Made by a program: the position numbers and the translations under genes
In this document: positions 20,431 through 62,529 of the stretch, in pieces
How positions within the stretch are numbered: the first letter of the stretch is position 1
Layout: every line of letters starts with the position of its first letter
The notes under the pieces: model-generated
Seen by the model: only the letters and a program-made list of their open reading frames with translations
What the model was told of the DNA's origin: nothing
Databases searched by the model: none
Source of the DNA: Psococerastis gibbosa
Lineage: Eukaryota > Arthropoda > Insecta > Psocodea > Psocidae
DNA length: 64,000 nt
Assembly: GCA_963971405.1 (NCBI GenBank)
Contig: OZ020489.1
Coordinates: forward strand, 14,534,290-14,598,289
Reading direction: 5' to 3'

Positions 20431-20439
20431 TAATGACTT

Positions 20440-20809
20440 ATATGTATTATATACCTTACAAATTATATGATATAATACTACATATAAAGTGATAATGCTC
20501 GAGAACACCCTGTGTATAATCCGATATCGTTCCATCCTTCAATATATACTCCTCTCCAACTGTACTGTACTTAGATGCGTTCATCCCTGTTCTTAGCCAA
20601 TAGCGTCACAGTCACACACTATTGGCTCTGCGGCAATATTGCCATTAGTAGTCCGTAGTCTAGCTACTTGACCGGTCAGTTTTTTATGCCACCCGCTGCT
20701 GTGCCCCCTTGCCGTAAAGTCAAAACAAGCCAATGTCCTGCTGGCAGATTTTAAGGAAGCTTCGAAAACTTTGTTTGCAGCCTGGTTTCTTTTAAGTCTA
20801 GTTGGTAGC
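20440..20809 (+). promoter_or_regulatory. Upstream region of lipase copy 1, conserved in copy 2
   Basis: About 370 bp that align with 35540-35956 ahead of copy 2. Shared blocks include CTTAGCCAATAGCGTCACA, GGCAATATTGCCATTAGTAG and the GCCTGGTTTCTTTTAA stretch next to the ATG. A TATA-like ATATATACTCC lies near 20541. It marks the left part of the tandem duplication and probably holds the promoter and 5' leader. Copy 2 has an extra stretch of about 40 bp just before the ATG. Confidence 0.6.
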
Positions 20810-29800: not shown

Positions 29801-32549
29801 GACTTCCTTATCAATGCCTCAGTAAGTATTATTGTACAATGACCGTTCCCGGGTCGCTCTCAAGAAAATCTAAAATATTTAGCATGAAGGTTAGCCGGCC
29901 GCCTTACCAAGTTGAATCCAGCGGACCAGAGCAGGTTCAAAGATGCAGACAACTTGGTCGTGTGCACAGCGCCGGTAGGGAAACATGGTAGGACTTGTCC
30001 TGGTCACCTCCGAACTAATCGTGTGACTTCACTGTGTTTCCCAAGTGGTTCGGAATCCACTATAATCAGGAGGTCCGCTGTCCTATGGGCCCACGCCGTG
30101 GCCTGGGACTGTGTCCAACCATACTACTACTAGCATGAAGGTTTTCCATTTGTAATTTTGGCATTTTCTGTTGTTTTTTTTTAAATGTTTTCTTGTTAGT
30201 AGCCTAGGTTAATAAGTACTAAAATATAATTATAAATAGTACTAAATAATTAGGGCCGTTCCCATTCTCCTTTGAGAAGTAATTAACACTGTGCGGAATT
30301 GGTAGATAGCGGTGCCGTCCAGTATTCCTTATGGATTCTTTCAGGCGTTGGGACCACCGGGCCTTAACCATCGCTTCACAATAGGGGTACTTACTTACCT
30401 GTGGTAATGTGGGAAGTCAGGGAAAATAGAATCCAAGTAAAAAGTTTTTTAAATAAGCATAGAATACAATAGGAATTTGGTTTATTTATTTACTTTGGGC
30501 GTCTAATTTCAATTTTCCCTGACTTTTCCCTCTTTGCCCAAGGTAAGTTAGTACCCTTATTATACAATATTTCGTTGAAGCCTATACATTAAGTTGGATT
30601 CGGATTTGTTTAAATGAGGGAATCATACAATCTTCTTCGTTCTTACTACCTAGGCTTACTATGCGAAAAGCTGTCGGTTTTGATGCTAAGAAGTAAGAAA
30701 TTACAGTAGATGTGGCAAAATCACACGAACTAATGGCCCAGTGTTTCCCTATCGACGTTTGTATGTAGATAACTTGCTGCTTTCACAATTTTCTGATATA
30801 CACAGACTAGAAATGCTCTCATGTAACGCATGTGTGAACCAGGCTATTGGGGCCCCTGCCACCTGCGGTCCTAATATACTAGTAGTAGTAGTAGTGTTCG
30901 TCGGGTTAATAACGACTTAGGCCTAATATTTGGGCCCATAGAGCGACCCTGACTTGACTGTCCTATGCCAGCCCATAGGACAGTGGACCTCCTGATTATA
31001 GTGGATTCCGAACCACTTGGGAAACACAGTGAAGTCACACGATTTGTTCGGAGGTGACCAGGACAAGTCCTACCATGTTTCCCTACCAGCACTGTGCACA
31101 CGACCAAGTTGTCTGCAGCTTTGAACCTGCTCTGGTCCGCTGGATTCAACTTGGTATGGCGGCCGGCTCCTAATATACTAAGTCGAGGCTGACTCAAACG
31201 AACCTTATACATTAGCCGCATATATACCGTGTAGCAGGACTCCCAACGTGTTCCGAACCGAATATCCGGTAAAGTTATTAAAAACCTTTACCTTTAAACA
31301 TGAGTGAACCCGGGGTAATAGCTAGCCCGGAGTTAATATAACTTGCTTAATAAAAAGGATGTAAGTTTTCCAATATATACTCCTTTGTTGCTGAGGCACT
31401 GACGACTTTATTTGCCCATGTTCTGCTAGCCGTTCACGATCCTTCTCCTTCTGATGTCATAATCTCAACGATTGGTTGACAGCAACTCTCCCTGTATCAT
31501 GCTCCAGCTCCCTCGGCCCTGCGCGTTCCGCTACAGCTCTTGGTACGTTCGCGCTTCTGCAACTTTCTTCAGTTGGTCCATGAATTCCTTTTTCGGCTCT
31601 CTCACTGCGCCCTCAATGATGGTGTGTACGAGATAATTATGTGGATTAGTGGTACAGACTCTGACTTTCACCCGAAAGGTTGTTGGTTCGAGTCCCACAC
31701 TTGCTACATTTTCTGGCCATGCTTCGGCGGGCATACAAAGCCGGCGGTTCCGGGCCTTCCTAGTTGAGTGTAAGATAGGGCTTTATAGCCCTAACTCCGC
31801 TAGGTTGACTTAATAATAAAACAAAAGAAGTCAATATTTATTTTATATTCGTGTCTTATCAAATGCGATACCCATTTCGATATTCTACTTTTTATGAAGC
31901 TGTCTCTCTGTTTTCATAGCCTCTAGTCCTCTTTCATTTGTCACGTGGTCCCCTCCAACTGATCCGATGCATCGGATACACCACACTTCAAACGCTTCAA
32001 GCCTCTTCAGTTCGGTATCTGCTATTATCCAGGTTGCATTATCTTACACCTGGTGATTTAATTCTGCCTTGCATTCTGGCAAACCAGTTTAATTGTACCG
32101 GTACCTAAATGAATAAAATTAATTTTGTTTTCCATTCTAAACTTCTTCTTCTTCAGTCAACGCCCGTCCTTGGTTGTTGGGCCATTTGACGCCGTGCCGC
32201 GTACCTAGTAGAGCTGGGCCAATCCCTCCTGTGTCTCAGTTCGGTTTTCTACCTCAATGCCGGTGCAGCTGAATAGGTGATCGGCATTCCCCTCCCAATG
32301 GAAGCAGAGGGGGCCTTCTAAAGTTATAATGGCGCCCACATTCCTTTACAATTATGAGCTATTTAGACGAGGCTAATGTCAGAATTGTTTTGATTTCAGG
32401 ACGTCAGGCTATTCAAGAATGAGTTCCCTAACGTGGTGTTCACCCAAGAGCATCCTGACTACAACCATATCGACTATGCGTGGAGCAGAACAGCTTGGAA
32501 AGATATTTACCCAGATGTTATTAGATTGATGAAAAAGTACAACCGGTAG
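20810..32549 (+). CDS. Secreted AB-hydrolase lipase, copy 1 (intact)
   Basis: Seven exons: 20810-20908, 25811-25994, 26263-26377, 27913-28162, 28709-28864, 29594-29821 and 32400-32549. The phases all agree and give 393 aa, normal for insect lipases of the acid/gastric group (lipase 1/3 type). A signal peptide (MLKIGLIVMMVLLTSG) is followed by the AB-hydrolase lipase N-domain (ELIRAAGY, TTADGYIL). The oxyanion HG pair is H76-G77, the nucleophile is S164 in GHSMG, and the likely acid and base are D338 (SWGDFL) and H367 (YNHIDY). It should hydrolyse acylglycerols or sterol esters outside the cell or in an acidic compartment. Intron 1 is 4.9 kb. The introns carry many MITE, SINE and LINE insertions, none of which touches an exon. 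Confidence 0.93.
20985..21510 (+). mobile_element. SINE (family C), split by a MITE
   Basis: 20985-21048 matches the middle of family C (GCGATCGGAGACGTGTCG) and 21436-21510 its tail (CAATCGGATACATTCATTCA and the AACCTTTTAAATAAAA end). The two halves are separated exactly by the TTA-flanked element at 21049-21432. Confidence 0.75.
21049..21432. mobile_element. MITE with long terminal inverted repeats, TTA target duplication
   Basis: 384 bp. The ends GGCGCCCATTCCATTGACCG and its near-complement are inverted over about 70 bp, including the core GACGTGGTAGCAGACAT. TTA lies directly outside both ends (21046-21048 and 21433-21435). TTA target sites and short length suggest a PIF/Harbinger-type non-autonomous element. 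The element at 32864-33081 shares the core and the TTA. Confidence 0.85.
21530..21675 (+). repeat. CCGGGGGAGACC-type repeat, single diverged unit
   Basis: Contains the phrase 'GTAAACCCCCACTATTTTGG' and a CTCCCGGGGGATACTC block related to the arrays at 24110 and 58490. Confidence 0.55.
23172..23690 (+). repeat. AGGGAGATTC repeat family, one arm
   Basis: Starts AGGGAGATTCATCTACCTAT and runs to CTCCCTACACCTGATCGGCC. It matches the left arm of the inverted-repeat element at 62530-63790 and the copy at 59990. Located in lipase intron 1. Confidence 0.75.
24110..24430 (+). repeat. Tandem array of about 100 bp CCGGGGGAGACC units
   Basis: Three to four diverged units, each with 'AATGCGT-AACCT-CACTAT' followed by a T-run and a GGGGAGACCC... 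block. The G/C block is partly self-complementary. The same unit recurs at 21530, 39770, 55840 and 58490. Confidence 0.65.
25529..25717. mobile_element. Foldback MITE, 189 bp
   Basis: ACAGCAGAAAA at the left end matches TTTTCTGCTGT at the right. The arms (GTTGACTGAGGCA... against TGCCTCAGTCAAC) pair over about 75 bp and meet at an (AT)n centre. It ends about 90 bp upstream of lipase exon 2. No clear target duplication. Confidence 0.75.
26060..26190 (-). mobile_element. tRNA-derived SINE (family A), antisense, diverged
   Basis: GTAGCAAGTGTGGGACTCGA is the reversed B-box region and ACTCTGTACCACTGCCGTAC the reversed A-box region. Located in lipase intron 2. Confidence 0.75.
27060..27295 (+). 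mobile_element. LINE 3' remnant, RTE-like
   Basis: Broken plus-strand coding sequence with an Arg-rich stretch and a VKGVEEAQ-like end. It resembles the second LINE end at 15076-15230 (GATGAGTGGxACCAGAGG segment shared). Located in lipase intron 3. Confidence 0.55.
27350..27570 (-). mobile_element. LINE 3' remnant, RTE-like, antisense
   Basis: Translates on the minus strand to RNEKYRLLHVIIQGK, EGLRASSRR and LKNLRQWFG, typical of the GKIEGRR...SWLKNLR-W end of RTE elements. Same family as 16600-16830. Located in lipase intron 3. Confidence 0.65.
28365..28630 (-). mobile_element. LINE 3' remnant (CR1/Jockey-like)
   Basis: Minus-strand frame reads THTYNTRQWGDLV, then LQGFAYIRKLATELR and NHLLEKAFYT, the H-YNTR and helix pattern of CR1/Jockey-like LINE C-termini. 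Located in lipase intron 4, reaching almost to exon 5. Confidence 0.65.
29035..29480 (-). mobile_element. LINE 3' remnant, RTE-like
   Basis: Minus-strand translation includes YGPLCEDGEWRLRNNAEID, then IRWLEHFVMSDDRMPKN. This is a common RTE motif (YGP--E-GEWR-R-N-E and RW-GHV-RM-D-R-PK). Located in lipase intron 5. Confidence 0.7.
29893..30130 (+). mobile_element. SINE (family B, short form) with target duplication
   Basis: Flanked by TAGCATGAAGGTT (29880-29892 and 30131-30143). It begins with GCCGGCCGCCTTACCAAGTT, which aligns with a 5S-like head, and ends in an (ACT)n tail. The matching intron of lipase copy 2 shows the unfilled site at about 48100 (TTTAGCATGAAGATTTTCCC). Confidence 0.88.
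30882..31167 (-). mobile_element. SINE (family B, short form), antisense, with target duplication
   Basis: Flanked by TCCTAATATACTA (30869-30881 and 31168-31180). It reads on the minus strand from a GCCGGCCGCCATACCAAGTT head to a (TAG/ACT)n tail at 30882-30895. Located in lipase intron 6. Confidence 0.88.
31440..32045 (-). mobile_element. RTE-type LINE 3' fragment, split by a SINE; shared with lipase copy 2
   Basis: Close to the end of the LINE at 1-400: CTCAACGATTGGTTGACAGC at 31467, TGGTCCATGAATTCCTTTTT, and TCCTCTTTCATTTGTCACGT. A family A SINE interrupts it at 31645-31835. The same LINE fragment, without the SINE, is found in copy 2 at 48190-48440, so it was there before the duplication. 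Confidence 0.82.
31645..31835 (+). mobile_element. tRNA-derived SINE (family A) inside the LINE
   Basis: GGATTAGTGGTACAGACTC (A-box region), GGTTCGAGTCCCACACTTGC (B box), family body and AATAAAACAAAAGAAG tail. Absent from the same place in copy 2. Confidence 0.87.
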
Positions 32550-33309: not shown

Positions 33310-33525
33310 TGTCAGGACATGTAGAGTAGTGGTACAAACTCCGACTTTCACCCGGAAGGTTGTTGGTTCGAGTCCCACTCTTGCTACATTTTCAGAACAT
33401 GCTTCGGAGGGCATGTAAAGCAGGCGGTCCCGAGCCTTTCCTAGTTGAGTGTAAGAGAGAGCTTTATAGCCCAAACTCCACTAGGTTGGCTTAGTAATAG
33501 AACAAAAAAGTCTATGTTTATTTAT
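33310..33525 (+). mobile_element. tRNA-derived SINE (family A)
   Basis: One of the best-kept copies: GGACATGTAGAGTAGTGGT, GGTTCGAGTCCCACTCTTGC, family body, AATAGAACAAAAAAGTC and an ATTT tail. It lies 3' of lipase copy 1. Confidence 0.88.
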
Positions 33526-35539: not shown

Positions 35540-35956
35540 ATAATATAATTTTATTATATGTATACCATATAAATTGAATGATGAAACGCAACATATAAAT
35601 TGGTAATGGTCGAGAACACCATATATATAATCTGATATCGATCGATCCTATAATATAGACCTCGTATACCCCACTCCCACTGTACTACTGTACATATCTG
35701 CGTCCATCCCTGTTCTTAGCCAATAGCGTCACAGGCACACACTATTGGCTCTACGGCAATATTGCCATTAGTAGTCCGTAGTCTAGCCAATTGACCGGTC
35801 AGCTACTGTGCCCCCTTTCTGTCCGTAAAGTCAAAACAAGCCAATGCCCTGCCAGCAGCTTTTAAGAAAGCTTCGACAACTTCGTTCACAGCCTGGTTTC
35901 TTTTAATCAGAACAAGGTTACGGTCGTACGGAGGACACTTCTATATAGTTGGTAGC
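35540..35956 (+). promoter_or_regulatory. Upstream region of lipase copy 2
   Basis: Duplicate of 20440-20809. The AGCCAATAGCGTCACA and CGGCAATATTGCCATTAGTA blocks are kept. An extra stretch of about 40 bp (from ATCAGAACAAGGTTACGG) sits before the ATG, either lost from copy 1 or gained here. Confidence 0.55.
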
Positions 35957-36059
35957 ATGCTGAAAATTGGATTCATAGTGATGGTGGTGTTGTTAACCAG
36001 TGGGTACTTTGAAGCTGCCTTGTTTGACGTCGACCCTGCGTTACGTTATACCACCGTGA

Positions 36060-37790
36060 GTATTAATATGTTAATGCATTGGATTAATTGATTTTATACA
36101 TTACTACCGGCATAGCCCGAGGTAGGCTACCACGTTAACTTAATCTCAAGGTTAAAAATGTAAACTAAACAATTTTAACAGAGCACTTTACATTAAAAAA
36201 TCTGTAGCTCACATTTTTAATCTCGATAGTTAATAATTAACTGGTACCTCGTGCTATGTCTGCAATTGGCAGTACAAGGGTATGTTCGGAATTATAGTCC
36301 CTGGTCATCTGCAGGTAGATTCCGAGTTGCAGACACCTGAGCTTTAACTAGATGTCGCTACTCGGAAAGTATGGTGGGTTCCGATGGCCACCGCTTTTAA
36401 GTTTTAACTTTTGGGCCCAGTATACTGTCCCAAGAGTTGTCAAGGTTTCTATTACCCAGACTGGGTCCCCCACGCAGTGTTGAACTCGAACTGTTGTGTG
36501 AAAATCACGGCACTGGGAGACTTACAGCTGCGCGAACGGGGCTCGCCCTGTTCTTGGGGGCTGATTCTAGTGGCGTCACGAAATAGTTGGCCGGTTTTTG
36601 ACATACAGCCTTCGGCCTTACATCCCCATCGGGGGTTTTAAGCGGTTGCTACTGAACCTACCGAGATACAATCTTAGAAGTCTGCATAGGAAATATGCAT
36701 ACTAAATTAAACCAGCGAAGACGTACCAACCTATAATGATCAAGGAACTATTTACTGACATACCATAAATTAAAATGCAATGAGGTACGTGGTAGAAAAA
36801 GCTAGGTATGTTATAATCGTCAGCCTTGGCAAATAATTATAATAATTTTTATTGACGGCAGTTAAAAATCTGTTCTGCCCTCGCGGAAGTATCACAACCA
36901 ATGAAATAAAATTAGATACACAAGTAAATAATATTTTTCGACAATTATTTGCAGCTACTTTGCCGTAATTTTTTGTCAGTACCAGCGCAAGTATTGAAGG
37001 AACATATAAATAGCACTAATTTGCCGTTTAAAAGCGAAAATTTCTTAAAATCAAATAAATTTCATTGGAAAGCCTATACACTCCATGTTAAAATGAGGGG
37101 GTGATGTCCGAAAATCAGGGGTACCCCCTCCCTTTCCGACAGCCCGCCATCTTTGTTTTACCTGCGCAAGAACTCCATTGGACTCTTCTTCTTCTTCAAT
37201 TGGACTACACTGTGTATATATCTTGGAATGTTTTTAATTTTTTTAAAGTGAGGGACAGAACTTTGTAACCGACTACCGGTAGGTAGGCCTATATCAATTA
37301 GAACAGGCAAGTGTTAGCGCAGAAATTTTAAAAATTAATTATACGATGTTTTTAACGAGGTTCTCTGTAGCGACAGCAAAGTTCGCCTATTTTTAATTTA
37401 CAAGTGGTAAAGTCGTATTTATTATCATCCTGGATGGACCAACAGCGCAGCGTTGCCAGAAGACACATTTCCGAATTTTTGGCCTTCAATCCGCAACATA
37501 TATATATATTATGTTGTTCTGTGGTTCGGCCATTGGAGGATATGAAATGCATTGAGCGCTATTGATTTTTACAGTTTTAAGTTGTTATTATTCATATTTC
37601 TAGCGTTATAGTCAAGTATTGCTGCTATGGCTTGTGTAATAGTGATAGCCTACACCAGGACAGAACACATATGCGAGAGGTCCGAATTATATCGTTTAAA
37701 ATAAAAAAAATTAAGAAATGCAAGTGGAAGTTGCATCTTTGTGGCAGAACGAAGTCCACAATATTTAAAGTTACAAAATACACATAGACT
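36060..37790. other. Lipase copy 2 intron 1, mostly unassigned
   Basis: A few stretches align with copy 1 intron 1 (for example ATCGTCAGCCTTGGCA at 36817 and 24682). The block 36280-36680 is more GC-rich than its surroundings and looks repeat-like, but I cannot name it. No coding exon seen. Confidence 0.4.
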
Positions 37791-37794
37791 ATAT

Positions 37795-38460
37795 ATGCAT
37801 GGCCGTGCCCAGGAGGTGGTCCATGGGGTCCGCACCCCCCCCCCCCCCCGAAATAAATTTCTGCAGGTAAACCTGTAGCCTATGGTTTGAAGAATGTATC
37901 CATTAATTCATTATTAAATTACGTAAAAAAATGTTTGGACCCCCCCCCCCCCCCGAAATCATAACCTGGGAACAGCCTTGTATATATGTTCAAAACATTT
38001 AGTGGATCCTAGTGGGCCAACAAAAGATTTTCCAGATCCAACCGGACAGTCGATTGAGATCATGGCCGTAGCCAAGGGGGAGTTCAACCCCCTCCCCCCC
38101 CCCCCCCCCGTGATGAAATGGCTTCATACTAAATAGAATCGGATTTTGAGAGGAAAATATAAACTACTATGTAATATCCAATTAAATTTCTGAACCTTCC
38201 CCCCCCCCCCGAAAAATCCTTGCTACGGCCTTGATTGGGATCAATAATGTATATTAATATAAATCGCCGTTACTTTCCAGTGGCCATGGCCGTGCCCAGG
38301 TGGGTGGTCCATGGGGTCCGGACACCCCCCCCCCCAAAAAAAAAAATAATTTTTTATGTAAACCTGTATTGCTCGATGACCATTAATTCAATAATAAATT
38401 ACGTTAAAAAAATTTGGAACCCCCCCCCCCCCCGAAAACAAAAGCAAACGGCCTATGGCC
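37795..38460. repeat. Cluster of three C-run MITE-like repeats
   Basis: Three copies of a unit that opens ATGGCCGTGCCCAGG or ATGGCCGTAGCCAAGG, has a long C run at each end, and in the clearest copy closes CCTTGCTACGGCC: about 37798-37980, 38063-38233 and 38284-38460. Short inverted ends and an AT-rich centre suggest a non-autonomous DNA transposon. C runs of 9-18 may be length-unstable or misread. Confidence 0.65.
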
Positions 38461-38945
38461 CTACGAAAATTAACTGCTTTGGTGCTCAGATACCAAATTG
38501 AATTCTAGTGATAGTATTATGGAGAGACAATAACCCTTTTTACGCTACTAATATTTATAAACAACATGATAGGCTAGCGTGTCGGCAGCCCTGAGCCCAG
38601 CCGACTAGGCTATATTTCATGGTAGTTGACTAGTTATGCAGTAAAGTTGTATGGTTATGGCAATAAATCATTACTAATACATTAATTGTAATATGTATAA
38701 GCAAGCTTAGGCTCACATACCCATTTAAATAATCTTCACTCTGGCACATGTAGATCGATACGTAATATTATCATCATTGAATTAATTGATGCAGTTAGCC
38801 GCGCTACAACGTTCTAGAAACAATTAGCATTTACTCATTTTAGTGTTAGGCTTACCCAAATAACAAAAAACATCAAGTCTAGGTTTTATGATGGTAAAAA
38901 CCATCTTGGTACTAGAAAGGCGGAAGATGTTTTTTTTTAGATTTT

Positions 38946-39145
38946 NNNNNNNNNNNNNNNNNNNNNNNNNNNNNNNNNNNNNNNNNNNNNNNNNNNNNNN
39001 NNNNNNNNNNNNNNNNNNNNNNNNNNNNNNNNNNNNNNNNNNNNNNNNNNNNNNNNNNNNNNNNNNNNNNNNNNNNNNNNNNNNNNNNNNNNNNNNNNNN
39101 NNNNNNNNNNNNNNNNNNNNNNNNNNNNNNNNNNNNNNNNNNNNN
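38946..39145. other. Assembly gap (200 N)
   Basis: Exactly 200 N, probably a scaffold gap of arbitrary size. It hides the 5' part of lipase copy 2 exon 2 and its acceptor site. Confidence 0.99.
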
Positions 39146-39634
39146 AGTTGCACTACATAACCACCGCTGATGGGTATATTTTACACATAGCCCGTGTCAA
39201 TGGTAACTCATCAGGTCCGCCGGTTCTTACCATGCAAGGCATGACTATTTCATCTGACGCATGGGTTTTGCAAGGACGCAAAAGAGACTTAGGTAAGGGT
39301 ATATAGAAATTTTAAACATATTCTACAAATGAACAGTACGCGTGAGTAAACCCTTTAGAATGTACATACGATATGTACCGCAATAGACAATAGGCTACCT
39401 AGCCTACTTTATCATTTTTTGATCATTTTTGAAAACCTATTTTTAAAAATGTATTGGCCGATTTATGTTATAGGGGCCTACCTCTTAATTTTTTTTTAAT
39501 CGGTATTTAGTAGTAGGGAGGGAAATTTTCCCCCTTTAATTTAAAATGGTTAAAATCACATGGCTCAGGAATGTAAAAATACTAGGCTAATTCTTATTGA
39601 AATACAGTACCGCTACCTACAATAATATAGGATA

Positions 39635-39705
39635 CGGCAAGGGTTCTCAAAGTGTGGGTCGCGACTCGCGAGTCACTCGCGACCCATAAATTTACACTTG
39701 ATAGA
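39635..39705. mobile_element. hAT-like terminus
   Basis: CAAGGGTTCTCAAAGTGTGG followed by a GTCGCGACTCGCGAGTC palindrome resembles the ends of hAT elements (CAGGGGTTCTCAAA type). The partner end was not found. Confidence 0.4.
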
Positions 39706-39769
39706 ATTCAGTTGAATGACAAGTTTTTTTCAATTTAAGTCACATATTTTTTTAACTATTGGCGGGAAC

Positions 39770-39960
39770 GGGATTGGCGGCCAAAACCGATTTAAAAACC
39801 CACCATTTTCTGTTTACAATACAAAAATTTTCCACCTGGGAAGAAATCCGGGCTCCCTTTTTAGAGTCGTAAAAAGAATGTGTGGAAACCCGTTTCCTTT
39901 GGTCTATAATTTGAAAAATTTGCCTCGGGGGAGAGGTAGTTAGGCGAGGTATCATATATT
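39770..39960. repeat. Diverged CCGGGGG-type repeat units
   Basis: Two weak units of the array family at 24110 and 58490, ending at a C run (39970). Assigned by the ACCCACCATTTT and GGGAAGAAATCCGGGC blocks. Confidence 0.4.
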
Positions 39961-40069
39961 TTATTGGTCGCTGGATTGCCCCCCCCCCCCTTGCTCTATT
40001 CCTGCGTACGCCCATGGACTGTAAGGCTATTTTTTAGGAAGGAAATCGAAGTAAAAATTGCAATGTAGA

Positions 40070-40985
40070 AATAAATAATTAGATTACTCGTGACTTCGTG
40101 GCATTTCATTTTAATAAACAAAAAATAACAAAAACTCAGAGTTTTAGAAAAACATGTTATAACAACCCGAATTAGTGCCAACGGCCTTACCATGTTGATT
40201 CCATTAGAGCAGAGCATGTTTCAAACTGCGGCAACTTGGTAGTGTGCACAGCGTTGGCAGGGGAACCTGGTGGGACATGATAACGCGCTTAGGCAGTATA
40301 AGTCGAGTCCTCGTCACCTCCGATTTAATCGTGTGACTTGACCATGTTCCCCAAGTGGTTCGGAATCCACTATAATCAGGAGGTCCACCCTGTTAGTCAG
40401 CTCCCCTTTCCCCGAGGTGAAAGAGTCTGCCCTTAGGGTGCCTCAAGTTAACAAACAGACTCACTCCCCCCGCCAGGCTGACAGGGTTGCTTAAAGCAGA
40501 AATGCTGAAAGCAGGCGTTAGAAACTAACTAACTAACAACCCGAATTAGTAAAACCCAAATAATCGTTAAGAAATTAACTTTGTCTAAGAAACCCACTTG
40601 TGTTAGTATAAAACCCTGAGCGCTTTCGGCAAGAACTGCCATCTACAGAGGGAAACCCACTAGCACAGTTACACCTTATCTGCGATTTGAGACTTGCTCA
40701 ACTCGAGGAGAAGATGCAAATGTGACTAGGGAGAGGAAACCTTGGTTTATATAGGACTGGGAGCGGGGGGAGGAGGGGGTGGTAGGGGGCGTGGCTGGTT
40801 ACCTATTCCTAACCTACTAGCTAGATCTATTAGAGGGGATGATTGTGTGAATGTTATGTCGTTTGTTAATTTTTCCCTATTGTGTAAAGCTCTCTTGATT
40901 TCAACATTTTCAAAAAAATTTAAAGTGTAACTTTTCTTTATTTTGTGTAGGGCTGTCCAATTGTGAGGATCGAACACAAGTGGGT
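40070..40985 (-). mobile_element. Partial Penelope-like element, flipped copy
   Basis: Reverse complement of the end of the Penelope-like element at 43490-44143. It includes the tail of the GIY-YIG frame (about 40812-40977) and the terminal-repeat segment with TTTATATAGGACTGGGAGCG. It lies head to head with the plus-strand element that begins at about 40979. A family B SINE sits in it at 40177-40534. It lacks the family C SINE present in the plus-strand copy. Confidence 0.85.
40177..40534 (+). mobile_element. Composite SINE (family B) with 16 bp target duplication
   Basis: Starts exactly at the 5S-like GCCAACGGCCTTACCATG and ends in a GAAACTAACTAACT tail. The perfect repeat AACAACCCGAATTAGT flanks it (40161-40176 and 40535-40550). 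The host sequence is the Penelope terminal repeat, whose uninterrupted form is seen at 41020-41050 and 44080-44100. Best evidence in the window that family B is a retroposon. Confidence 0.93.
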
Positions 40986-41130
40986 TTCTTAGACAAAGTT
41001 AATTTCTTAACGATTATTTGGGTTTTACTAATTCGGGTTGTTGTAACAAGATTTCCTAAAACTCTAAGTTTTTGTTATTTTTTGTTTATTAAAATGAAAT
41101 ACCACGAAGTCACGAGTAATCTAATTATTT

Positions 41131-43065
41131 ATGTTAAAACAGCTAGTCTTGCTGAACAACTCAAAATATATAGGAAACTTAAAGAAAAATTCGCCATTGC
41201 TTCACTTAACCTCAAATTTAACTAAGATTGCAAAAGACTTAGAATCACTCCTAAATACATCCGAATTAAAACAGCAACCTTTTCCACACAATCCAATAAA
41301 GCACTTCATTAGAATCGCCCAGAAAGTCTGGCTTGCAGAAGAAATCAAAAAATGGCTCAAAATCAGAGACAGCATAAGCCTTTACCTTAAAGTTTTACAT
41401 TCAGAATTATCTTTCAAACTTCACTTTTTAGAATGGACCACCTTCCAAGATCAAATATACACAAAAATTAGTGGCATCACTTACAAAAAACGCACAACAC
41501 TAAATAAAAAAATAAAAGAACTGAGTCAAAACCAAAATAACAAATCCAACGGAATACATCACACATCACATCGCGACACGAAACATCAGATGCGCGGGAC
41601 GAACGTCAGTTCACGGTCTAACCCCCTTCATCAATCGATGCAGACTGGGGTAGATCAAGGCCTCACGCCTTCAGCGCAGACACTCACTACATTACCCATC
41701 ACAACACATAAATTCTATCCTCGCACCGTCAACTTATCTAACACGATTTTCCACACAAAAGAAATGGAACTTCTCCACAAGGGCCTCAAGTATTGCCCCG
41801 ATATAGGTCTAAACAAAAACACGTTAACCAACTTAATGTCAGACACTGAATTTAGCCTAAAAAACCACAATAATGAAAAACACATAGCAGCAGATATTCT
41901 GAAAAACGTCAAACTTACACACAAAAACGATAACACTAAATCTATAAAAAATAAACTAGCCCAAGATAACCTTACACTCACCAAGGCGGATAAAGGAAAT
42001 TCTATTGTCATTTTACCTACCCATGATTATGTTTCTAAAGTCTTAGACCTCATTTCTGATGAATCCACATTCGAAAAACTTAAAGTAGACCCCACAAACA
42101 AATTCCAAAAAGCAACCAAAAAAGCCATTAAACAAAGCTCTAATACGATACCCCAAGATATAGCCTATAAATTTACCAACATGAACCCCGTAGCTCCTTC
42201 ATTTTTTGGTCTGGTTAAACTTCATAAACCCAATCAACCTATCCGCCCAGTAGTTTCGTATAACAGTGCCCCAGCCAGCAAAGTAGCTAGTTTTCTCAAC
42301 AAACACATTCGCGAGCTATCAAACTTCACACCCCGCCGCAGCGTCAAAAACTCATTCGAGTTGGTTTCCCGCCTTAAGCACCTTTCCTTATCCAGCAATG
42401 CCAAACTCGTCTCTTTCGATGTCAAAAATCTGTTTACTAATATTCCTGTACCCGAAGTACGTAAGTTAGTTGCCCAGTCACTCTATCACAATAATACCTT
42501 GAACAGGCTTATTTCTGAGACCCTCCTTCTGTTAGACACATGCACTCATCAAAACTATTTCCGTTTCGAATCCGACTACTACCAACAAAAAGTAGGCCTA
42601 CCTATGGGTTCTTCCCTTTCTCCCCTTCTTGCTAAAATTTTTATGGATAACTTCGAACACAAACTTCTACTCAATAAAAATCCCCTAGTTAAATGTATAT
42701 CTTTCTGGACAAGGTATGTGGATGATATCTTCTGCATTTGGACAGGAAGTAACAGACAACTAGACAATTTCTTAAGTTTTATCAACACAACTCACCCAAA
42801 AATCCAATTTACCATGGAAGTAGAAGAAAACAACTCCCTGAACATCTTAGACCTCACCATCACCAAAAATAATAGTACCCTAGACTTCAAGATATTTCGT
42901 AAGGAAACCCATAGCGATAATATAATCCCTGTTGATTCTTCTCACCCATTCCAGCACAAACACGCAGCATTCCATAGTATGATTTTTCGACTCCTCAGCA
43001 TCCCTATGATTGAAACCAACTATAATAATGAATTAAATCGCAATAAAACAAATTGCCCAAAATAA
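41131..43065 (+). CDS. Penelope-type reverse transcriptase
   Basis: Open frame of 644 aa. Penelope hallmarks: LTKADKGNSIVI, FFGLVKLHKP, SFDVKNLFTNIP, QKVGLPMGSSLSPLLAKIFM, and the catalytic YVDDIF followed by the NILDLTI block. The first 60 or so residues may overlap the terminal repeat, so the true start could be a later methionine. Penelope reverse transcriptases are related to telomerase and prime at nicked or exposed DNA ends. The host gene around it is unrelated. Confidence 0.92.
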   Translation: MLKQLVLLNNSKYIGNLKKNSPLLHLTSNLTKIAKDLESLLNTSELKQQPFPHNPIKHFIRIAQKVWLAEEIKKWLKIRDSISLYLKVLHSELSFKLHFLEWTTFQDQIYTKISGITYKKRTTLNKKIKELSQNQNNKSNGIHHTSHRDTKHQMRGTNVSSRSNPLHQSMQTGVDQGLTPSAQTLTTLPITTHKFYPRTVNLSNTIFHTKEMELLHKGLKYCPDIGLNKNTLTNLMSDTEFSLKNHNNEKHIAADILKNVKLTHKNDNTKSIKNKLAQDNLTLTKADKGNSIVILPTHDYVSKVLDLISDESTFEKLKVDPTNKFQKATKKAIKQSSNTIPQDIAYKFTNMNPVAPSFFGLVKLHKPNQPIRPVVSYNSAPASKVASFLNKHIRELSNFTPRRSVKNSFELVSRLKHLSLSSNAKLVSFDVKNLFTNIPVPEVRKLVAQSLYHNNTLNRLISETLLLLDTCTHQNYFRFESDYYQQKVGLPMGSSLSPLLAKIFMDNFEHKLLLNKNPLVKCISFWTRYVDDIFCIWTGSNRQLDNFLSFINTTHPKIQFTMEVEENNSLNILDLTITKNNSTLDFKIFRKETHSDNIIPVDSSHPFQHKHAAFHSMIFRLLSIPMIETNYNNELNRNKTNCPK

Positions 43066-43278
43066 CAATTTCAATCTCAATCTAATAGACAGAATCCTAC
43101 GACATCACAAAATCAAACACAACCTCAACCTCAAACTAATTTACCCCCAGAGAGCTTAAACCCGGAAACCAATAAATCATATTTCAGGATACAATACATA
43201 GAAAAAATCACAGAAAAAATAAGTAACCTCATTTCTTCTACAACAGACAAAACACCAGCCCCGTACAACCGCAACAAT

Positions 43279-43668
43279 TTGGCCAATAAACTCATGAACT
43301 GCAAAACCAAACCAGAAAAGGAAAAAGGCAATGGAGTTTATCGTCTAAATTGTAACGATTGTAACGCAATTTACATAGGCCAAACAGGCAGAAGCTTTAA
43401 AACTAGGGTCAGAGAACATATAGCAGGTACAGGAGACACCAACACCAACACCACATTCGCGAAACACCTTAACTCGGAAAATCACACATTCGATCCTCAC
43501 AATTGGACAGCCCTACACAAAATAAAGAAAAGTCACACTTTAAATGTTTTTGAAAATGTTGAAATCAAAAGAGCTTTACACAATAGGGAAAAATTAACAA
43601 ACGACATAACATTCACACAATCATCCCCTCTAATAGATCTAGCTAGTAGGTTAGATGGCCAGGTGGTA
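43279..43668 (+). CDS. GIY-YIG endonuclease domain of the Penelope-like element
   Basis: Contains NGVYRLNCNDCNAIYIGQTG with the GVY...YIGQTGR signature, then FKTRVREH and a conserved FAKHLNSENH block. This domain nicks the target DNA in canonical Penelope elements. It lies downstream of the reverse transcriptase in the same direction. The reading frame runs into a family C SINE at its 3' end. Confidence 0.92.
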
Positions 43669-43829
43669 ACGTGCTTGCACTTGTGCGAGTCTATTATACA
43701 CCATGCGATTGGAGGCGTGTCGTAGCTCAACACGGGTACTAACCTACAGAGGCGACTGAAGAGGTTAATCGGATACATTCATTAAATTGTTTGTATGCGG
43801 TTAACCTTTTATTTAAAAAAAAAAAAAGG
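43660..43829 (+). mobile_element. SINE (family C), best-kept copy, inside the Penelope-like element
   Basis: Head ATGGCCAGGTGGTAACGTGC, body GCGATTGGAGGCGTGTCG and tail TAATCGGATACATTCATTAA with a run of A. The flipped Penelope copy shows the same place without it, as the complement of GTTAGGAATAGGTAACCAGC at about 40797. Confidence 0.88.
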
Positions 43830-44343
43830 TAACCAGCCACGCCCCCTACCACCCCCTCCTCCCCCGCTCCCAGTCCTATATAAACCAAGGTTTCCTCTCC
43901 CTAGTCACATTTGCATCTTCTCCTCGAGTTGAGCAAGTCTCAAATCGCAGATAAGGTGTAACTGTGCTAGTGGGTTTCCCTCTGTAGATGGCAGTTCTTG
44001 CCGAAAGCGCTCAGGGTTTTATACTAACACAAGTGGGTTTCTTAGACAAAGTTAATTTCTTAACGATTATTTGGGTTTTACTAATTCGGGTTGTTATAAC
44101 ATGTTTTTCTAAAACTCTAAGTTTTTGTTATTTTTTGTTTATTTACGTCAGTAGGGGGATTCACTCTGTTGATAGAAAGTAGAAATAGAACTACAGTTTT
44201 TCTACGGTAGAAATAATGCCATAAGGACATGTGTTAATCGTGTCTTTCTACGGCTTTCTACTACTTGGGGAATCAAAAACAAAGCAAACGGTCGACCATA
44301 TTTGTTGTTTTTATTGCTCATATTTAATTATTTAATTTTAAAA

Positions 44344-44463
44344 ATGAGTTGTACAAGACAAATAAATGACAAAAAACAGAAGGAAACATGTAGCAAGAGG
44401 TGGACTGCGGAAGCTGTTAATAAGTTCCTCGAGATATTAATAGCCAAAGTACAAGAAACTTAA
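44344..44463 (+). CDS. Short Myb/SANT-like ORF of the transposon
   Basis: 39 aa ending at TAA: a basic start, then KRWTAEAVNKFLEIL, which resembles the first helices of a Myb/SANT or MADF-type domain. A second plus-strand segment at 44864-45008 follows a good acceptor (TTTCTGTTTCAG) and may be a second exon. Harbinger elements commonly carry such a second protein that helps nuclear import and DNA binding. Confidence 0.4.
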   Translation: MSCTRQINDKKQKETCSKRWTAEAVNKFLEILIAKVQET

Positions 44464-45446
44464 TTTGGAGGTAAGTTGCGTGTGTTTATATCAAAATTAA
44501 ATATGCTGCTTACGTTATTTGCTGTTGATACCCATCTGAAAATCGCCGAAACATACTAGGAATTAGGATTACAATTGACTGTTATTAACACGTAAGTTTT
44601 ACGCTTAAAAAGCCGCAGACACAACTACTTCGTTCCTTTGAAGTACGTAGGTACTGTACTTATGCCTCATGTTTTGGATTTGTTCGGGTATTTAGGTAAA
44701 TTATCCCTTAGGGCTATTCTGCAGGAAATTTGGAGTTACTGTGCATTTGAATACGGCGTTCAGTAATTTTGCTACGAATAATAATATTGGTGTGGTGCAT
44801 GGATTCTATATTATTGAATGCAGTTAGATCTACACATCACCGGTTTTTCTTTCTGTTTCAGAAACCAACCGCCCAGACAACAACAAAAAGAATGACGCCA
44901 ACGACCCAATCAGAAACGAGAGCGCCTGCGCACCGAACCATACCTGCACCACAGCACCAGTCAGTCAGTCAGTCGCTACGATACCTCCGCGATACAACCT
45001 TAGAAGTATAGGTGTACGTAACCCCACTGAAGATGTCGTACGCAGTTGTTGACGAAACATTTGGAAGCCTACTTTGAAATCGACCACGGCCTATTAGCCC
45101 GGATTCTTGTGTCCCCTTATTATTCCAACCGTGAAAGCCTTCGTTATTATATTGAATTCAAAATGTGTCGTTCGATACAATTTAAGTGTTATTTTATTAT
45201 TCTATTGTCAAATCAATAAAACATTGAACCATATTTGCTTTGTATATAGGCCTTAATACATTAGTTATTTAATTTGCTTACATTAGTTATGATACTATTT
45301 ATACGAATTGTTAATGCTGCTGGCGTAAGTCAATCATTGAAAGAGAACGAACGGTCTAGCTACAAAATACTTATAATTGACAGAGGCTGCATCATAGCTT
45401 TAAAACTGTTTCCATGAGCGCCTTCCTTTTACTGGTACCGGCTGTA

Positions 45447-45931
45447 TTATCTTGTACATCTTGCGCTTTGATGGCATAATTTTGTTTGCGTGAGTAGGAA
45501 CTCTCCACAACCGTCTAAGTAGCCAATACAATGAGGCAGCTCGTGAATTTTGGCATTGACGATTTCTCTTCTTTCCTCTTCAATTGGCCAATGCAAAACT
45601 CTCATGAAAATGTTAAACCGCACATTTCGTCGTGGACTCGTGGCTCGGAAGCACGTTGGTCCACCACTCCTTAGATTTAGGGACAGACCCAATGCAAAAG
45701 CGTACGCTATAGGCCTACCGTATTGACATGACCACAGAAATATCGTCGATGGCTTGACTTAGTATTTCTTCCTCGATCCTCTTCAAAATTCTCGCACATC
45801 ATTGCATTGCATTTTTCCGCGAGGAAGTTGATGGCTTTCAACGTATTTCCTAATTTAGGCATAGGTAGGTAGGTAATGAAAAATAAGTTTAAACTTAAAG
45901 TGAAAAAAACACCTGCTAAAAACAAAAACAA
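45447..45931 (-). pseudogene. Harbinger-like transposase fragment
   Basis: The minus-strand frame at 45447-45692 has AKIHELPHCIGYLDGC and FLLTQ, like the second catalytic block of PIF/Harbinger transposases (GxxDG after a hydrophobic run). The adjoining piece at 45707-45931 (LKAINFLAEKCNAMM, CENFEEDRG) is in another frame. The sequence is decayed and lacks a full DDE triad, so the transposon is unlikely to move by itself. Confidence 0.5.
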
Positions 45932-46244
45932 ATTACACGGCTAAAAACAAAAACAAACTGACAAAAAGACAAGAACGTAGCGCCCACACCTGTTGGTAGT
46001 TCCTTGTAGTATACAATTTCAATTTTTACCTCACAGAATGCGCCTTAAAAACTTTCTCTATTTCTACCGTTGACGGAGGTATCCTCACTCTGAGCTTTTT
46101 TTCGATTTTTCTATTCCCTTTTCTATCAACAGAGTGAATCCCCCTAGTGGCGAAACTTCAGTCAGATTTTGCCACAAATTTGTTAAATGTTATTTAGTTG
46201 ACTGTGGTCACGGCATCCCACCCTCGTTCTTTCCCATATCTACC

Positions 46245-46585
46245 CCCCCCCCCAAGGACGGATACAGGGGGGGGGGGGGTAGCTGCCCCCCAAAATTTGG
46301 TAAATCTATTGTAAATTAAGTTATTACGCTCTAATTTTGTCGATCCTACATAAGTTTTTCCTATTTTGACCCTCAGCTACCCCCCCCCCAAAAATGGGCT
46401 GGATCCGTCCCAGAGCAAGGACGGATACAGGCGGTAGCTGCCCCCCCCCCCAAATTTGGTAAATCTATTGTAAATTAAGTTATTACGCTCTAATTTTGTC
46501 GATCCTACATAAGTTTTTCCTATTTTGACCCTCAGCTACCCCCCCAAAAAAATGGGCTGGATCCGTCCCTGCCCCCCCCCCCACA
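46245..46585. repeat. Two tandem MITE-like units with C/G runs, about 165 bp each
   Basis: Each unit opens AAGGACGGATACAGG and closes GGGCTGGATCCGTCCC, with an AT-rich core (TAAATCTATTGTAAATTAAG) and C runs between. The cores of the two units at about 46300 and 46460 are almost identical, which suggests a recent tandem duplication or an assembly collapse at the C runs. Confidence 0.72.
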
Positions 46586-48189
46586 TTTCCTACCTTAATC
46601 CCTACAGTGGTAGTCGGTCCCATTTGTTACACAAAAAAAAAAACATGATCCATAAATTGTACCTTACGTCCTGCTGGCAACTCCTTTATTGTAAATAATA
46701 TTCAATATTAGGCTACATCGACGGTAAAGCCTAAGCTGCGGCAGTGTAAGGGTGGAAAACATTTACCGCAATACTGATAATATTCATAGTGGATTTCCCA
46801 AGACGTGGCAGAATAGACAAATTGGACCGACGGATTAAGGATTTGTTCAAAAAATTGGTCGTTCCTTTTAGATTGGCATGCAAAGGCAAAAGGTTCTGGA
46901 ATTCCCTAGATTTGCATGGGCGCCACTCTTTGCCACTGCTTTCTGTGGACAGAAGATATTGACGCAAGACCTGTGCTATGACCTCATCTTTTTCTGGGCT
47001 GGAAATCAAGCTAAACGGTTGTCCCGGGTAAGACCACATCAACCAATATGCTTATAGGCCGCAGAATATTTTTTACTCAGATTTCAAAGTTGAATTTCTT
47101 ACAATAAATCGAACGCAGACAACTCATCTGGAAATCAGAACAGTGGGTCAGTGTCACAAACTGAACAAATCTGGTCACGGTGCCACCACATTTCATTAGA
47201 ATAAAAGCAAGAAGAATGGTTAGCAGAAAAAAATAGACTGATTGATGGCACTATGGCGAAATTATCAGTTAAAAACCCACGGGATTTGTTACAAGTCCGA
47301 AATGGTGCACAATGTTTTCCGACACATGCTGGATGCACACAGCACCGTCAGTCCGGTCCTGGCCGGGCACAAGAGGTTTCTAAGTCCACATGTGGACTTT
47401 ACTTTGATCACTACGAAGTTTTTAGTCGAGGACCGCTTCGCTAGGGGTATCAGCCGTTCAACAGAATAAGAATAAATCTATTGGTAGAGGGCAATGGCAA
47501 TGATGTAATATTATAAAACAATGGGTTGGTTTGACTTACTTGCCTACTATGTTAATAGATTGTCATTAGACTTGGCTTCAGAGTCATCGAACAATTTGGG
47601 TGGAGACCATTCTCAGGGGAAGGGGAAGTTCTTTCTCAATCCTCAAGGGGATTGGATATTCGGAATTACTCAATAATGCCGAGTAGAAACCATCAGCCCT
47701 TCTCAGACAATGTGAGTCCAACTAACCCTTTGCTAAATAAAAATAAGAAGTTATAGTAAGTAAAGATATTATCCGCGTGGAATTCAGTGTCAAGCATTTA
47801 GTGTTTTACTTTTCTTTTTGCTTTATTTTTAGAAAACTCTGCCGATGGTTATGTCGCACGTACCAGCAGGGCTTTCAGTCCTGACACCCATCCACTTAAT
47901 CCAGACATGGACAGATGGGATATTTCGACAGCTCGATTTTGGCCGGAAAGGCAACATGAAACGCTACAGAACGCTAGCCCCGCCACAGTACACACTCTCT
48001 AATGTCAACTGTCCTGTTTCATTGTTTTACTCCTGGGGAGACTTCCTTATCAATGCCTCAGTAAGTATTATTGTAAAATCTCAAGAAAATTAAATTATTT
48101 AGCATGAAGATTTTCCCTTTGTAAATTTCTCATTTTCTGTTTTCTTTTAAGTAGCCTAGGTCAATAAAACTATATTCACAAAATACACA

Positions 48190-48440
48190 TGTATTAGGCA
48201 CTGTGCCCTCAATAATGGTATGTACTTAGATTTTTGTGTCTATGCCCTACCCATTTCGAGCTTCAACTTTTTATGTGAGGTAGCAGCTGCCGCTCTTTTT
48301 TAATAACCTCTAGCACTCTCATTCGTCGCGTGATCCCTCCAGCTGATCTGAAGCATCCTTCTGTAATACCACACTTGCCCTGTATTCTGGCAATAACAGT
48401 TTGATTATACCTAAAGGAATAAAATTTTTGTTGTTTTCCA
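48190..48440 (-). mobile_element. RTE-type LINE fragment in copy 2, shared with copy 1
   Basis: Counterpart of 31610-32130 in copy 1 without the SINE: TGTGCCCTCAATAATGGTAT, CATTCGTCGCGTGATCCCTC, then the shared non-LINE sequence TTTTCCATTCTAAACT. Confidence 0.78.
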
Positions 48441-48509
48441 TTCTAAACTTATAGTAATGGAGCACTATTCCAACGTGCCAACCTTACATTACAATCATGA
48501 GCTTTTTTG

Positions 48510-48800
48510 ATGGGGCTTCTTCTTCTTGAGTTGCAATCTAGGGATTGGTTTGCAGCGAATGTTGTATTTTTCTCCTCCACTCTTGTCTGTTTTGTGCGGT
48601 CCTTTGTTCTTTGTAGGTGTCGCACCCTAGGTCCTTCATGACATCCCCTAGGTACTCCTTCCTCAGTCGTCCTCTTGAGTTGGTGCCTTCAATACCCTCA
48701 ATTATGTTTTTGAATGTTCTTCGTGTCTCAGAATATGCCACATCCATTTGCCTCTTCTTGTTGAAATGATAGCCATAATAGCTCTTTTTTCGTTTATTCT
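48510..48800 (-). mobile_element. LINE 3' fragment, RTE-like, private to copy 2
   Basis: The minus-strand frame ends GRLRKEYLGDVMKDLGCDTY. Close to 35030-35262. Copy 1 intron 6 runs across this point without it (ATTATGAGCTATTTAGACGA at 32350). Confidence 0.75.
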
Positions 48801-49149
48801 ATGACGAGGCTAATGTCAGAAATATTTTAATTTCAGGACGTCAGACTATTAAAGAATGAATTCCCTAACGTCGTGTTCACCCAAGAGCATACTGACTACA
48901 ACCATATCGACTATGCGTGGAGCAAAACAGCTTGGAAAGATATCTACCCAGATGTTATTGGATTGATGAAAAATTACAACCATTAAAGCAACGAAATCAT
49001 GCCGATAGCTTAGGGCAGGTCATAACGATACCATGCACTGCAGTCAATGCTATATTGGTAATGGGGGAGAAACATTAGCACGAAACTATGCAGTTCACAT
49101 GCCCTCGGCATAGCTTGTAGAAAAACAGTATTTCAGGCCTTTGTTTGGA

Positions 49150-49330
49150 AGTAAAGTAAATAAATAAATCTATAAAAGCCTTCTCTTACACTCAACTAGG
49201 AAGACCCGAGACCGCCTGCTTTACATGCCCTCCGAAGCATGGCCAGAAAATTTAGCAAGTGTTGGACTCGAACCAACAACCTTTCGGGTGAATGTCGAAG
49301 TCTGTACCACTACTCTACATGTCCTGAAGT
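49150..49330 (-). mobile_element. tRNA-derived SINE (family A), antisense
   Basis: TTTACATGCCCTCCGAAGCA, AGTGTTGGACTCGAACCAAC (reversed B box) and CTGTACCACTACTCTACATG (reversed A box). Located just 3' of lipase copy 2. Confidence 0.85.
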
Positions 49331-52068: not shown

Positions 52069-55000
52069 TCACACGTCAGTGTGCAAAACCCCACGAGGAT
52101 TTAATTTCTTGAGCTCAGGAGCTTCCAGCTCCGAATCATCTGAAAAACAAATAAGAAACGAATTTTTAATTCAAACATGTTGCATCATCTACAGCGCTTG
52201 CTGTGCGAGCCCCCGACAAGTTTATTAACTGGGGGTCCACAGGATTTTTGTTTTACAATAGTATAACTTTATTGTTAACTTATTTATAAATATATTCCTT
52301 CGGCATAGGGGAGTACGAAAGTAAGAAGGAAAAAAAATTAAATGCAGCGGGTTCTCTTATGTTTCATATAAGAATGGATGCACTGTTGTGAATCGGGTTT
52401 TTGTACTTGAGCAAGAAGAAACATAAAAAAGGCAAAGAAAAAGCTCTAGTCTTCGACCATACAATACTCCAGACACGCCATCTTAAAATTTCCGAGGGAA
52501 CATAAAAATGACGTTAACACAGGCAACGTTACTCACCCAGCCTTCACTAGCACCGGGATGCAATATTATAATATAGGTAGCCTACTCCAGAAGTAGGTAT
52601 ATTGAATTTACCAAATTTTGCGGCTCAACTAATTCTGATGTGCTCTCCACTAGTCTCTCCTTATCAAATCGCTATTGTTTCAACGAAAAACAAAATTAGT
52701 CCAACAGGAATGTCGAAAAATAGGTACAAAACAAGTGTTAGTTAGCCTATGTAAATATTTTTATTGTAACGGGGACATGCAGATGAATGCTGCGCATATC
52801 TTGGAGAGATCGCGACGATCGTGTCCCTAATTCCGATTACGCCACCAGTATCAGCCACTGAGGATGAGTTCCAAAAGTTAACGGCCACACACTGTATACC
52901 AAAACTAAGATGAACAAGAATATGTTTTTTACTTTGTGACACCCTACGATCGAGTTTCCGGCGTGTCCGCATTGATTTACATCTAATATGGAATACAGAA
53001 GCTCTGTAGTTTTGTATACAACATTCAAACAAAACAGTCCTAAGTGTTTTCATTATATCTGTATCGGTATAGGGGAAATGCATTGGATGCAAGGCATAAC
53101 AAAATGGTGCAATCGAAATTGTTACAGTGTCGCACTGTACCAAAACATTCCAAATCCATACTTTTCACATTTTGCGTGGATAGTACAAAACATTCCCGTT
53201 AGAATGCGCTGTGCACTTGCGACAAAAAATTTTAGTTTTAGGCTGCACTAAATTGCTTTCGTACGTCATTAAAGTAAATACTGTATTTCGTTTTGGTCAG
53301 GTAAAATATTAAATATTTCTTTTACTCTAATTCTCGACCAACAGCCTGTCTTTTCCTGCTGTAACCATACCATTGGTCATGGCTTCATGGACACGGCAAA
53401 ATCAAACCACATGAGAATTTTTCTCTGAATTAGGTATCCAAATTATGGCTAAATTCAGAAGCCCGTATGCTTTACAGGGGCTATGAAATCCTGTCCCACT
53501 GCAGCAATGGAGATAGTATTGGACTTCCCATCCTATGACAACAGTCGGGACCAGCGTTTCCACTTTCAGGGATATTTCCCTTGTTAGGGAAAATCCGGGT
53601 TTATTCACTGCACTAAAGGGAAATTGGAGGGAAAAGGGAATTTTGAGGGAAATTTGAAGAAAGAAGAGAGATATTGAGGGCAGCGTTTCCACTTTGAGGG
53701 AAATTTCCCTTTTTAGGGAAAATCCGGGTTTATTCACTGCACTAAAGGGAAATTGGAGGGAAAAGGGAATTTTGAGCAGCGTTTCCACTTGCGATACATC
53801 AAATTTCCCTCAGCGGCAACTCAAAATTTCCCTCTTTTCCCTCGCTCGCCTAATTCGCTAATATTCCTCTATTTTCTAAATTTCCAAAATTTCTGGGGGG
53901 GGGGGGAAGTCTGCCTAGCAAATTATAAGACTTTTTTATTATTTAAATTTTATTGTTTTTTAATGAGTAAAAAAAAATGAATGAATGAATGAATGTATTA
54001 AATATTTAGAACAATTTAAATACAATAATTGTAAAGCCCCACATGGAGACCTATAACAATTTACCCTACTCTAAAACTAAAGAAAACGAAAAAAAATCAA
54101 TTAGACTTAATTTAACTTATTAAACTACACTTACATATTAATAACAGATCTCTCGTAAACACATAACAGTCTAGTCCACTATTTCAAATAAAGATTCCAC
54201 CTCTTCCCGTCTCATCAGCCATTCCCGGACGAATTTGGAAAATTTATTTATTGACAGCGACCCAGGACAAATATTAAGTAAGTTAAATAATTTTGGTGCT
54301 ATATATTGGTAGGATTTGGTAAAATTTGCTATGTATGCCCTTGGTACTACAAGGTGCTCAATTCTTCTAGTATTTGCTGGTCTGGGTCTCTGTACCATGT
54401 CCCCACTGATAGAGTAAAAAATTCGCAATGTCTTGTAAAAGAACAAGTGCCGCAGCGGGAATAAACCGAGAGACGCAAAGAGAGGGAATGATGGCCAAGT
54501 TCTAGGTTTTTTGACTATTGTTCTAATAAGGTATTTTTGGGTAACTACAAGTGAATTTAAATTTGTAACAAAGGTCCCACCCCACACTTGGATACCATAC
54601 GCTAACCGAGATTCACAAAGTGAGTGGTATAGTTGGATTAAAATTTTTTGAGGGCAGACCGTGCGGAGGTAAAAAAGTTGTCTTAAAAAATTTCGACATT
54701 TTCCGTTTATCGATTTTAAGTGGCTGCTCCATTTCATATCACTGTTGAAGTGGACGCCAAGGTATTTCGTCGTTTGTGCTTTAGTGATAGCTGGGCATTG
54801 ACAATTTGGATTTTGTAAGTCGCAATTATACGCATGGCATCTCACTTCGAGGGGCTCATCTATACTTCCTGTTCTTAGATTGTATGGCAGAAAACAGGTT
54901 TTACTAACATTAATTGTAAGGCCATGGATTTGGAACCAAGTGTTAAGATGTTGTAAATCCTCAGTCATAAACATTTGTATCTCATTCCAGTCTCTTGCAG

Positions 55001-62476: not shown

Positions 62477-62529
62477 CTGAAATGAATACACAAGACAAAT
62501 TAGGTTTAATAGTGATGCGTCTTACACAT

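Follow-up and report, generated by a model that had tools for sequence, protein, structure and literature searches.

The analysed window is a stretch of 64,000 nucleotides from the insect Psococerastis gibbosa (assembly GCA_963971405.1, contig OZ020489.1, here called C14; C14:14534290-14598289), and it contains two tandem copies of an acid lipase gene. The first (copy 1) is intact, and the second (copy 2) lacks exons 3 and 4, which correspond to residues 95-216 of copy 1, including the serine of the GHSMG motif; copy 2 is probably a young pseudogene. The two loci consist of the following features.

20810-32549, + strand: copy 1, a seven-exon acid lipase gene of 393 residues, joined frame open, GT/AG introns
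20810-20908, 25811-25994, 26263-26377, 27913-28162, 28709-28864, 29594-29821, 32400-32549, + strand: exons of copy 1
35549-35956, + strand: upstream region of copy 2, homologous to 20438-20809 of copy 1 (about 80% by blastn; 306 of 356 ungapped columns identical)
35957-48986, + strand: copy 2 locus, duplicate of copy 1
35957-36055, + strand: exon 1 of copy 2, with a signal-peptide-like start (by eye) and an intact donor, ending in phase 0 (92.9% nucleotide identity)
38946-39145, no strand: run of 200 N hiding the acceptor and the first 37 bases of exon 2
39146-39292, + strand: visible part of exon 2 of copy 2 (91.0% nucleotide identity to copy 1)
46781-46871, + strand: remnant of intron 4 of copy 2, where homology to copy 1 restarts
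46872-47027, + strand: exon 5 of copy 2 (92.9% nucleotide identity to copy 1)
47833-48060, + strand: exon 6 of copy 2, keeping the Asp aligned to the catalytic Asp (88.2% nucleotide identity)
48837-48986, + strand: exon 7 of copy 2, retaining the stop codon and the His opposite the catalytic His (92.5% nucleotide identity)

A tandem pair of acid lipase genes

When the exons of copy 1 are joined, 393 codons read through uninterrupted to the stop, and the product is identified as a gastric/lysosomal acid lipase. It matches gastric lipase 1hlg at an E value of 7.8e-68, in an alignment spanning residues 35-389, with further matches to gastric lipase 1k8q and lysosomal acid lipase 6v7n, and it carries the Pfam domains PF04083 and PF00561 (alpha/beta-hydrolase). 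Ser164 (exon 4), Asp338 (exon 6) and His367 (exon 7) sit opposite the residues of the Ser-Asp-His catalytic triad in the alignments to 1hlg and 1k8q. Ser164 belongs to the GHSMG motif, which pairs with GHSQG of 1hlg; the nucleophile is in exon 4, where a first-pass annotation made from the sequence alone had put it. Copy 1 is like other members of the acid lipase family in domains and triad positions, whereas copy 2 differs from them in being without the serine exon and the exon before it. PF00151 was also tried as the family of this gene and rejected: none of its 88 matches in the genome lies in the window, and the right family is PF04083. Most matches to acid lipase exon 2 (PF04083) lie on C14, which holds 17 of 20, including the two in the window; groups of them occur around 35.9 Mb and 45.2 Mb.

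The five exons kept by copy 2 (1, 2, 5, 6 and 7) have the lengths and frames of their copy 1 counterparts and contain neither stops nor indels in 774 compared bases, at identities of 88.2-92.9%, so that their earlier description as open and free of stops is upheld. The accompanying statement that splice sites are intact holds for the visible ones, which are GT/AG in both copies, but not for the acceptor of exon 2, which is unseen; the N run ends inside this exon and covers 37 of its 184 bases together with the acceptor. Intron 1 is collinear with that of copy 1 until roughly 1 kb short of exon 2 (38728-38847 matches 24733-24856), and from this collinearity up to 38847 (24856) approximately 0.9 kb is probably hidden in the N gap. 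The shared exon frames and the homologous upstream region show that the whole gene was duplicated. At the position of His76, within a conserved HG motif, copy 2 has Gln; all 12 of the paralogous exons fetched, out of 18 located beyond the window, have His there. The replacement may be a sign of drift or of a changing role in copy 2, either preceding or following the loss of its exons.

The missing block and the mobile DNA in its place

Homology between the copies ends 21 bases into intron 2 (39313, corresponding to 26015) and restarts at 46781, corresponding to 28220 within intron 4 of copy 1; the restart had been claimed at about 46790, and no earlier one rises above shuffled sequence. Between these limits lie about 2.2 kb in copy 1 and about 7.5 kb of other sequence, with zero N, in copy 2. 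Exons 3 and 4 were reported missing at first pass, and indeed neither has a counterpart in 39293-46871 by blastn, while the best tblastn E value for this interval was 1.4 among the matches listed. Shuffle tests gave no remnant of exon 4 or intron 3 in 46579-46780 (observed score reached by 255/300 and 166/200 shuffles) and none of introns 2, 3 and 1 in 39314-39625 (reached by 34, 80 and 63 of 100 shuffles, respectively). The same test applied to intron 6 as a control yielded a score of 37.5 against a shuffled mean of 15.7, reached by 0 of 100 shuffles.

With exon 4 absent, copy 2 is without the nucleophile serine that an active enzyme of this family would need. The first-pass annotation had gone further and proposed that exactly the exons holding the catalytic serine were lost. 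The serine exon is absent, but it went with one contiguous block reaching from intron 2 to intron 4 and is not singled out; as the block is contiguous and the site full of mobile elements, nothing points to selective loss of this exon. The stretch between exons 2 and 5 of copy 2 is mostly mobile DNA.

39632-40070, + strand: fragment of an hAT-like repeat, truncated on the right at 40070 (at least 50 matches, with 40 of 267 candidate places scored)
40071-44143, + strand: Penelope-like element (a retrotransposon) with an inverted terminal copy at left; Pfam RVT_1 and GIY-YIG
41131-43065 and 43279-43725: open reading frames of the Penelope-like element for reverse transcriptase and GIY-YIG, respectively
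44152-46146, + strand: terminal inverted repeat (TIR) element of about 2 kb with TA at both ends, high-copy and young
46253-46578, no strand: high-copy repeat of roughly 160 bases, present as two adjoining copies

The remainder of the gap outside these elements amounts to about 310 bases (39314-39625), about 100 bases (46147-46252) and about 200 bases (46579-46780). The leftmost repeat, which we take to be hAT-like from its end sequence, is truncated at its right: its alignment to fetched copies halts at 40070-40072 in all five compared. That this right end is lost where the Penelope-like element begins hints that the deletion and the Penelope-like insertion may be linked. The latter element is interrupted by a repeat at about 40177-40533 and has inverted copies that are 99.3% and 98.2% identical; across the 440 aligned columns of its terminal copies there are 4 mismatches and 1 gap, a divergence of about 5% of that between the two lipase genes at synonymous sites. 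No target-site duplication, which is optional in some copies, was identified in its flanks, the left one being the truncated repeat. Direct and inverted terminal copies have been described for Penelope-like elements of Adineta vaga (PMC3846280), and the present element shares with these both this arrangement and the combination of reverse transcriptase and GIY-YIG; it differs in occupying the place of lost host exons. The TIR element recurs at no fewer than 42 other places, each matching over 1,600 of the 2,019 bases of the query with 94-99% identity, counted from 40 scored out of 2465 first-look candidates. Some of these places form tandem or inverted series, e.g., C14:2732275-2738518.

Integrity of the assembly

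The assembly searched comprises 409 Mb in 68 contigs. Exons 3 and 4 of copy 2 might, as had been suggested beforehand, reside in a misplaced contig. A genome-wide DNA search with these exons returned copy 1 as the sole match, and a control search with exons 5 and 6 recovered both copies (copy 1 at 100%, copy 2 at 88% and 93%), so that a second pair of exons 3 and 4 of similar divergence should have shown up. The protein search picked up all five exons that copy 2 has kept and no second close exon 3-4 in the whole assembly, the next best matches being paralogues of 59-61% identity near C14:45.2 Mb. Because the search with exons 3 and 4 yields copy 1 alone and that with exons 5 and 6 yields both copies, it is unlikely that the missing exons sit elsewhere in this assembly.

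These searches also bear on the foremost competing explanation, an assembly artefact or allelic state in which exons 3 and 4 were lost or mis-joined at repeats, or in which the deletion is present on one haplotype. The break adjoins exon 2 and the interval is packed with young high-copy repeats, both of which favour such an error. Against it stand the zero N between exons 2 and 5, the absence of a second exon 3-4 from the 68 contigs under a working control, and the TIR element, which has matching inverted ends and TA on both sides as in an ordinary insertion; these arguments concern the assembled haplotype, not the second one. On balance, we regard an artefact or allelic state as improbable.

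Selection and timing of the loss

The two copies differ at 69 of 774 coding bases. A purpose-written Nei-Gojobori count gave a synonymous distance (dS) of 0.235 and a nonsynonymous distance (dN) of 0.060, and the resulting pairwise dN/dS of 0.254 (95% bootstrap 0.15-0.42; none of 2000 replicates reached 1) combines the periods preceding and following the loss. The comparison of the kept exons, which the first-pass annotation had proposed as a check for exons 5-7, yielded per-exon ratios of 0.10 (exon 1), 0.47 (exon 2), 0.21 (exon 5), 0.25 (exon 6) and 0.29 (exon 7), with few changes behind each. Had copy 2 been neutral since the duplication, a pairwise ratio of 0.53-0.60 would be expected under assumed background ratios of 0.05-0.20. 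The observed value lies below this expectation, which speaks against copy 2 having decayed neutrally for the whole time since the duplication.

A bound on neutral time comes from simulating the probability that the kept exons acquire neither stop nor indel, which fell from 0.44 to 0.21, 0.08, 0.04 and 0.01 at neutral fractions of 0.05, 0.10, 0.15, 0.20 and 0.30, respectively. The simulation used an indel-to-substitution ratio of 0.135, derived from 13 gaps and 96 mismatches in 600 non-coding columns (356 of them from the upstream region); this ratio may be low, as the non-coding stretches were picked for aligning. Under this model, neutral time beyond roughly the last 15-20% since duplication appears unlikely because the kept exons are without stops or indels. 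Taken together with the low divergence of the Penelope-like terminal copies described above, this means that either the loss is recent or the locus is still constrained; the evidence from the sequences agrees with both and separates neither. Of the two options offered at first pass, a recent event or a locus that still makes a product, the first fits the dN/dS and the neutral simulation, and the second remains compatible with them.

Possible products of copy 2

As had been noted before, joining exon 2 to exon 5 shifts the reading frame; the 12th full codon of exon 5 is then a stop. A junction that the first-pass annotation did not contain, from exon 1 directly to exon 5, is in frame (phase 0 on both sides) and open, and it would encode 210 residues: a signal-peptide-like start, part of the cap and a C-terminal part with the Asp and His, but no serine. 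The locus might, then, make a shortened non-catalytic protein, and the compatible phases, the open joined frame and the conservation of the visible splice sites are in line with this, as is the position of the exon 2 acceptor within the N run, which leaves room for skipping of exon 2. However, such a product would be missing not only the serine but also a large part of the alpha/beta-hydrolase core and would hardly fold, and constraint before the loss can account for the low dN/dS. We therefore consider a protein of this kind distinctly unlikely. Less probable again is that the deletion created a secreted, serine-less lipase fragment that was then selected, e.g., as a partner of the intact neighbouring lipase in lipid binding or regulation; the sequence holds no evidence pointing to a serine-less product.

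Copy 2 as a probable young pseudogene

The best explanation, to which we assign a probability of about 0.82, is that copy 2 is a young pseudogene, formed by a block deletion in DNA rich in transposable elements after a long period of constraint. The entire acid lipase gene was first duplicated in tandem together with its upstream region, as the homology of exons, intron parts and upstream sequence shows. The two copies then evolved mostly under purifying selection, as the sequences show for the pair and as we presume for copy 2. Subsequently, copy 2 lost a block that begins early in intron 2, includes exons 3 and 4 and extends into intron 4, at the site where mobile elements are now found; we infer a single deletion caused by mobile elements. 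Owing to the frame shift and early stop at the junction of exons 2 and 5, no enzyme would result from a transcript, if there is one, and its degradation is probable. The remaining exons are presumably still open because, judging from the simulation, the time elapsed has been too short for stops and indels to arise.

Copy 2 shows two of the properties expected of an unprocessed (duplicated) pseudogene, namely homology to a functional parent that includes introns and flank, and a lesion that abolishes the parental product (absence of exons 3 and 4, frame break between exons 2 and 5). Like other members of this class, it lies in tandem, with introns and upstream region, and its coding potential is destroyed; it differs in that its kept exons are free of stops and indels, as at an early stage. 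If this assignment is correct, the locus captures a duplicated gene at an early point in its decay, with the rest of the gene still clean. Annotators would do well to label it a probable pseudogene and to record that exon 2 is cut by the N run; the known picture of lipases and of gene loss is unchanged. No paper on such a locus was found as judged by title, which is not proof of its absence from print.

Several observations weigh against the pseudogene assignment or loosen its details. Open frames and conserved splice sites are also compatible with a locus that retains some product. The Penelope-like insertion could have come before or after the deletion, so that it does not fix the date of the latter, and the hAT-like repeat has no visible continuation to the right of the Penelope-like element, leaving a simple nested insertion unsupported. 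A comparison with outgroup paralogues, meant to identify the faster-evolving copy, placed copy 1 closer (20 vs 6 and 20 vs 8) with copy 1 as query but reversed to 12 vs 18 with copy 2 as query; since the choice of query flips the outcome, it was discarded and the His76-to-Gln replacement alone kept. Finally, the continuity of copy 2 across exons 1 and 2 rests on collinearity, the contigs there having been joined without sequence. A run of 200 N resembles a scaffolder default length, and the true length of the join is uncertain, so copy 2 might in principle not be one gene but exon 1 of one copy joined to exons 2 and 5-7 of another; yet this is barely credible given the collinear intron 1, the similar identity of all exons to copy 1 and the finding of one exon 1 and one exon 2 at such similarity beyond copy 1, and it would leave exons 3 and 4 still absent.

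Other features of the window

On the minus strand, two adjoining frames at 16-3031 carry endonuclease/exonuclease and reverse transcriptase domains and represent an interrupted retrotransposon of the long interspersed nuclear element (LINE) type; a reverse transcriptase frame of 495 codons at 54171-55658, also on the minus strand, belongs to another LINE-type element. Two open frames of 120 codons each (5651-6013 and 62184-62546, both minus strand) have no Pfam match at E 0.001. A short repeat of about 130-160 bases occurs at 31639-31788, 33312-33469, 49170-49327, 10676-10830, 13598-13751 and 26052-26178, in both orientations; relative to the copy at 49170, identity is 76-89%, and one copy is located in intron 2 of copy 1.

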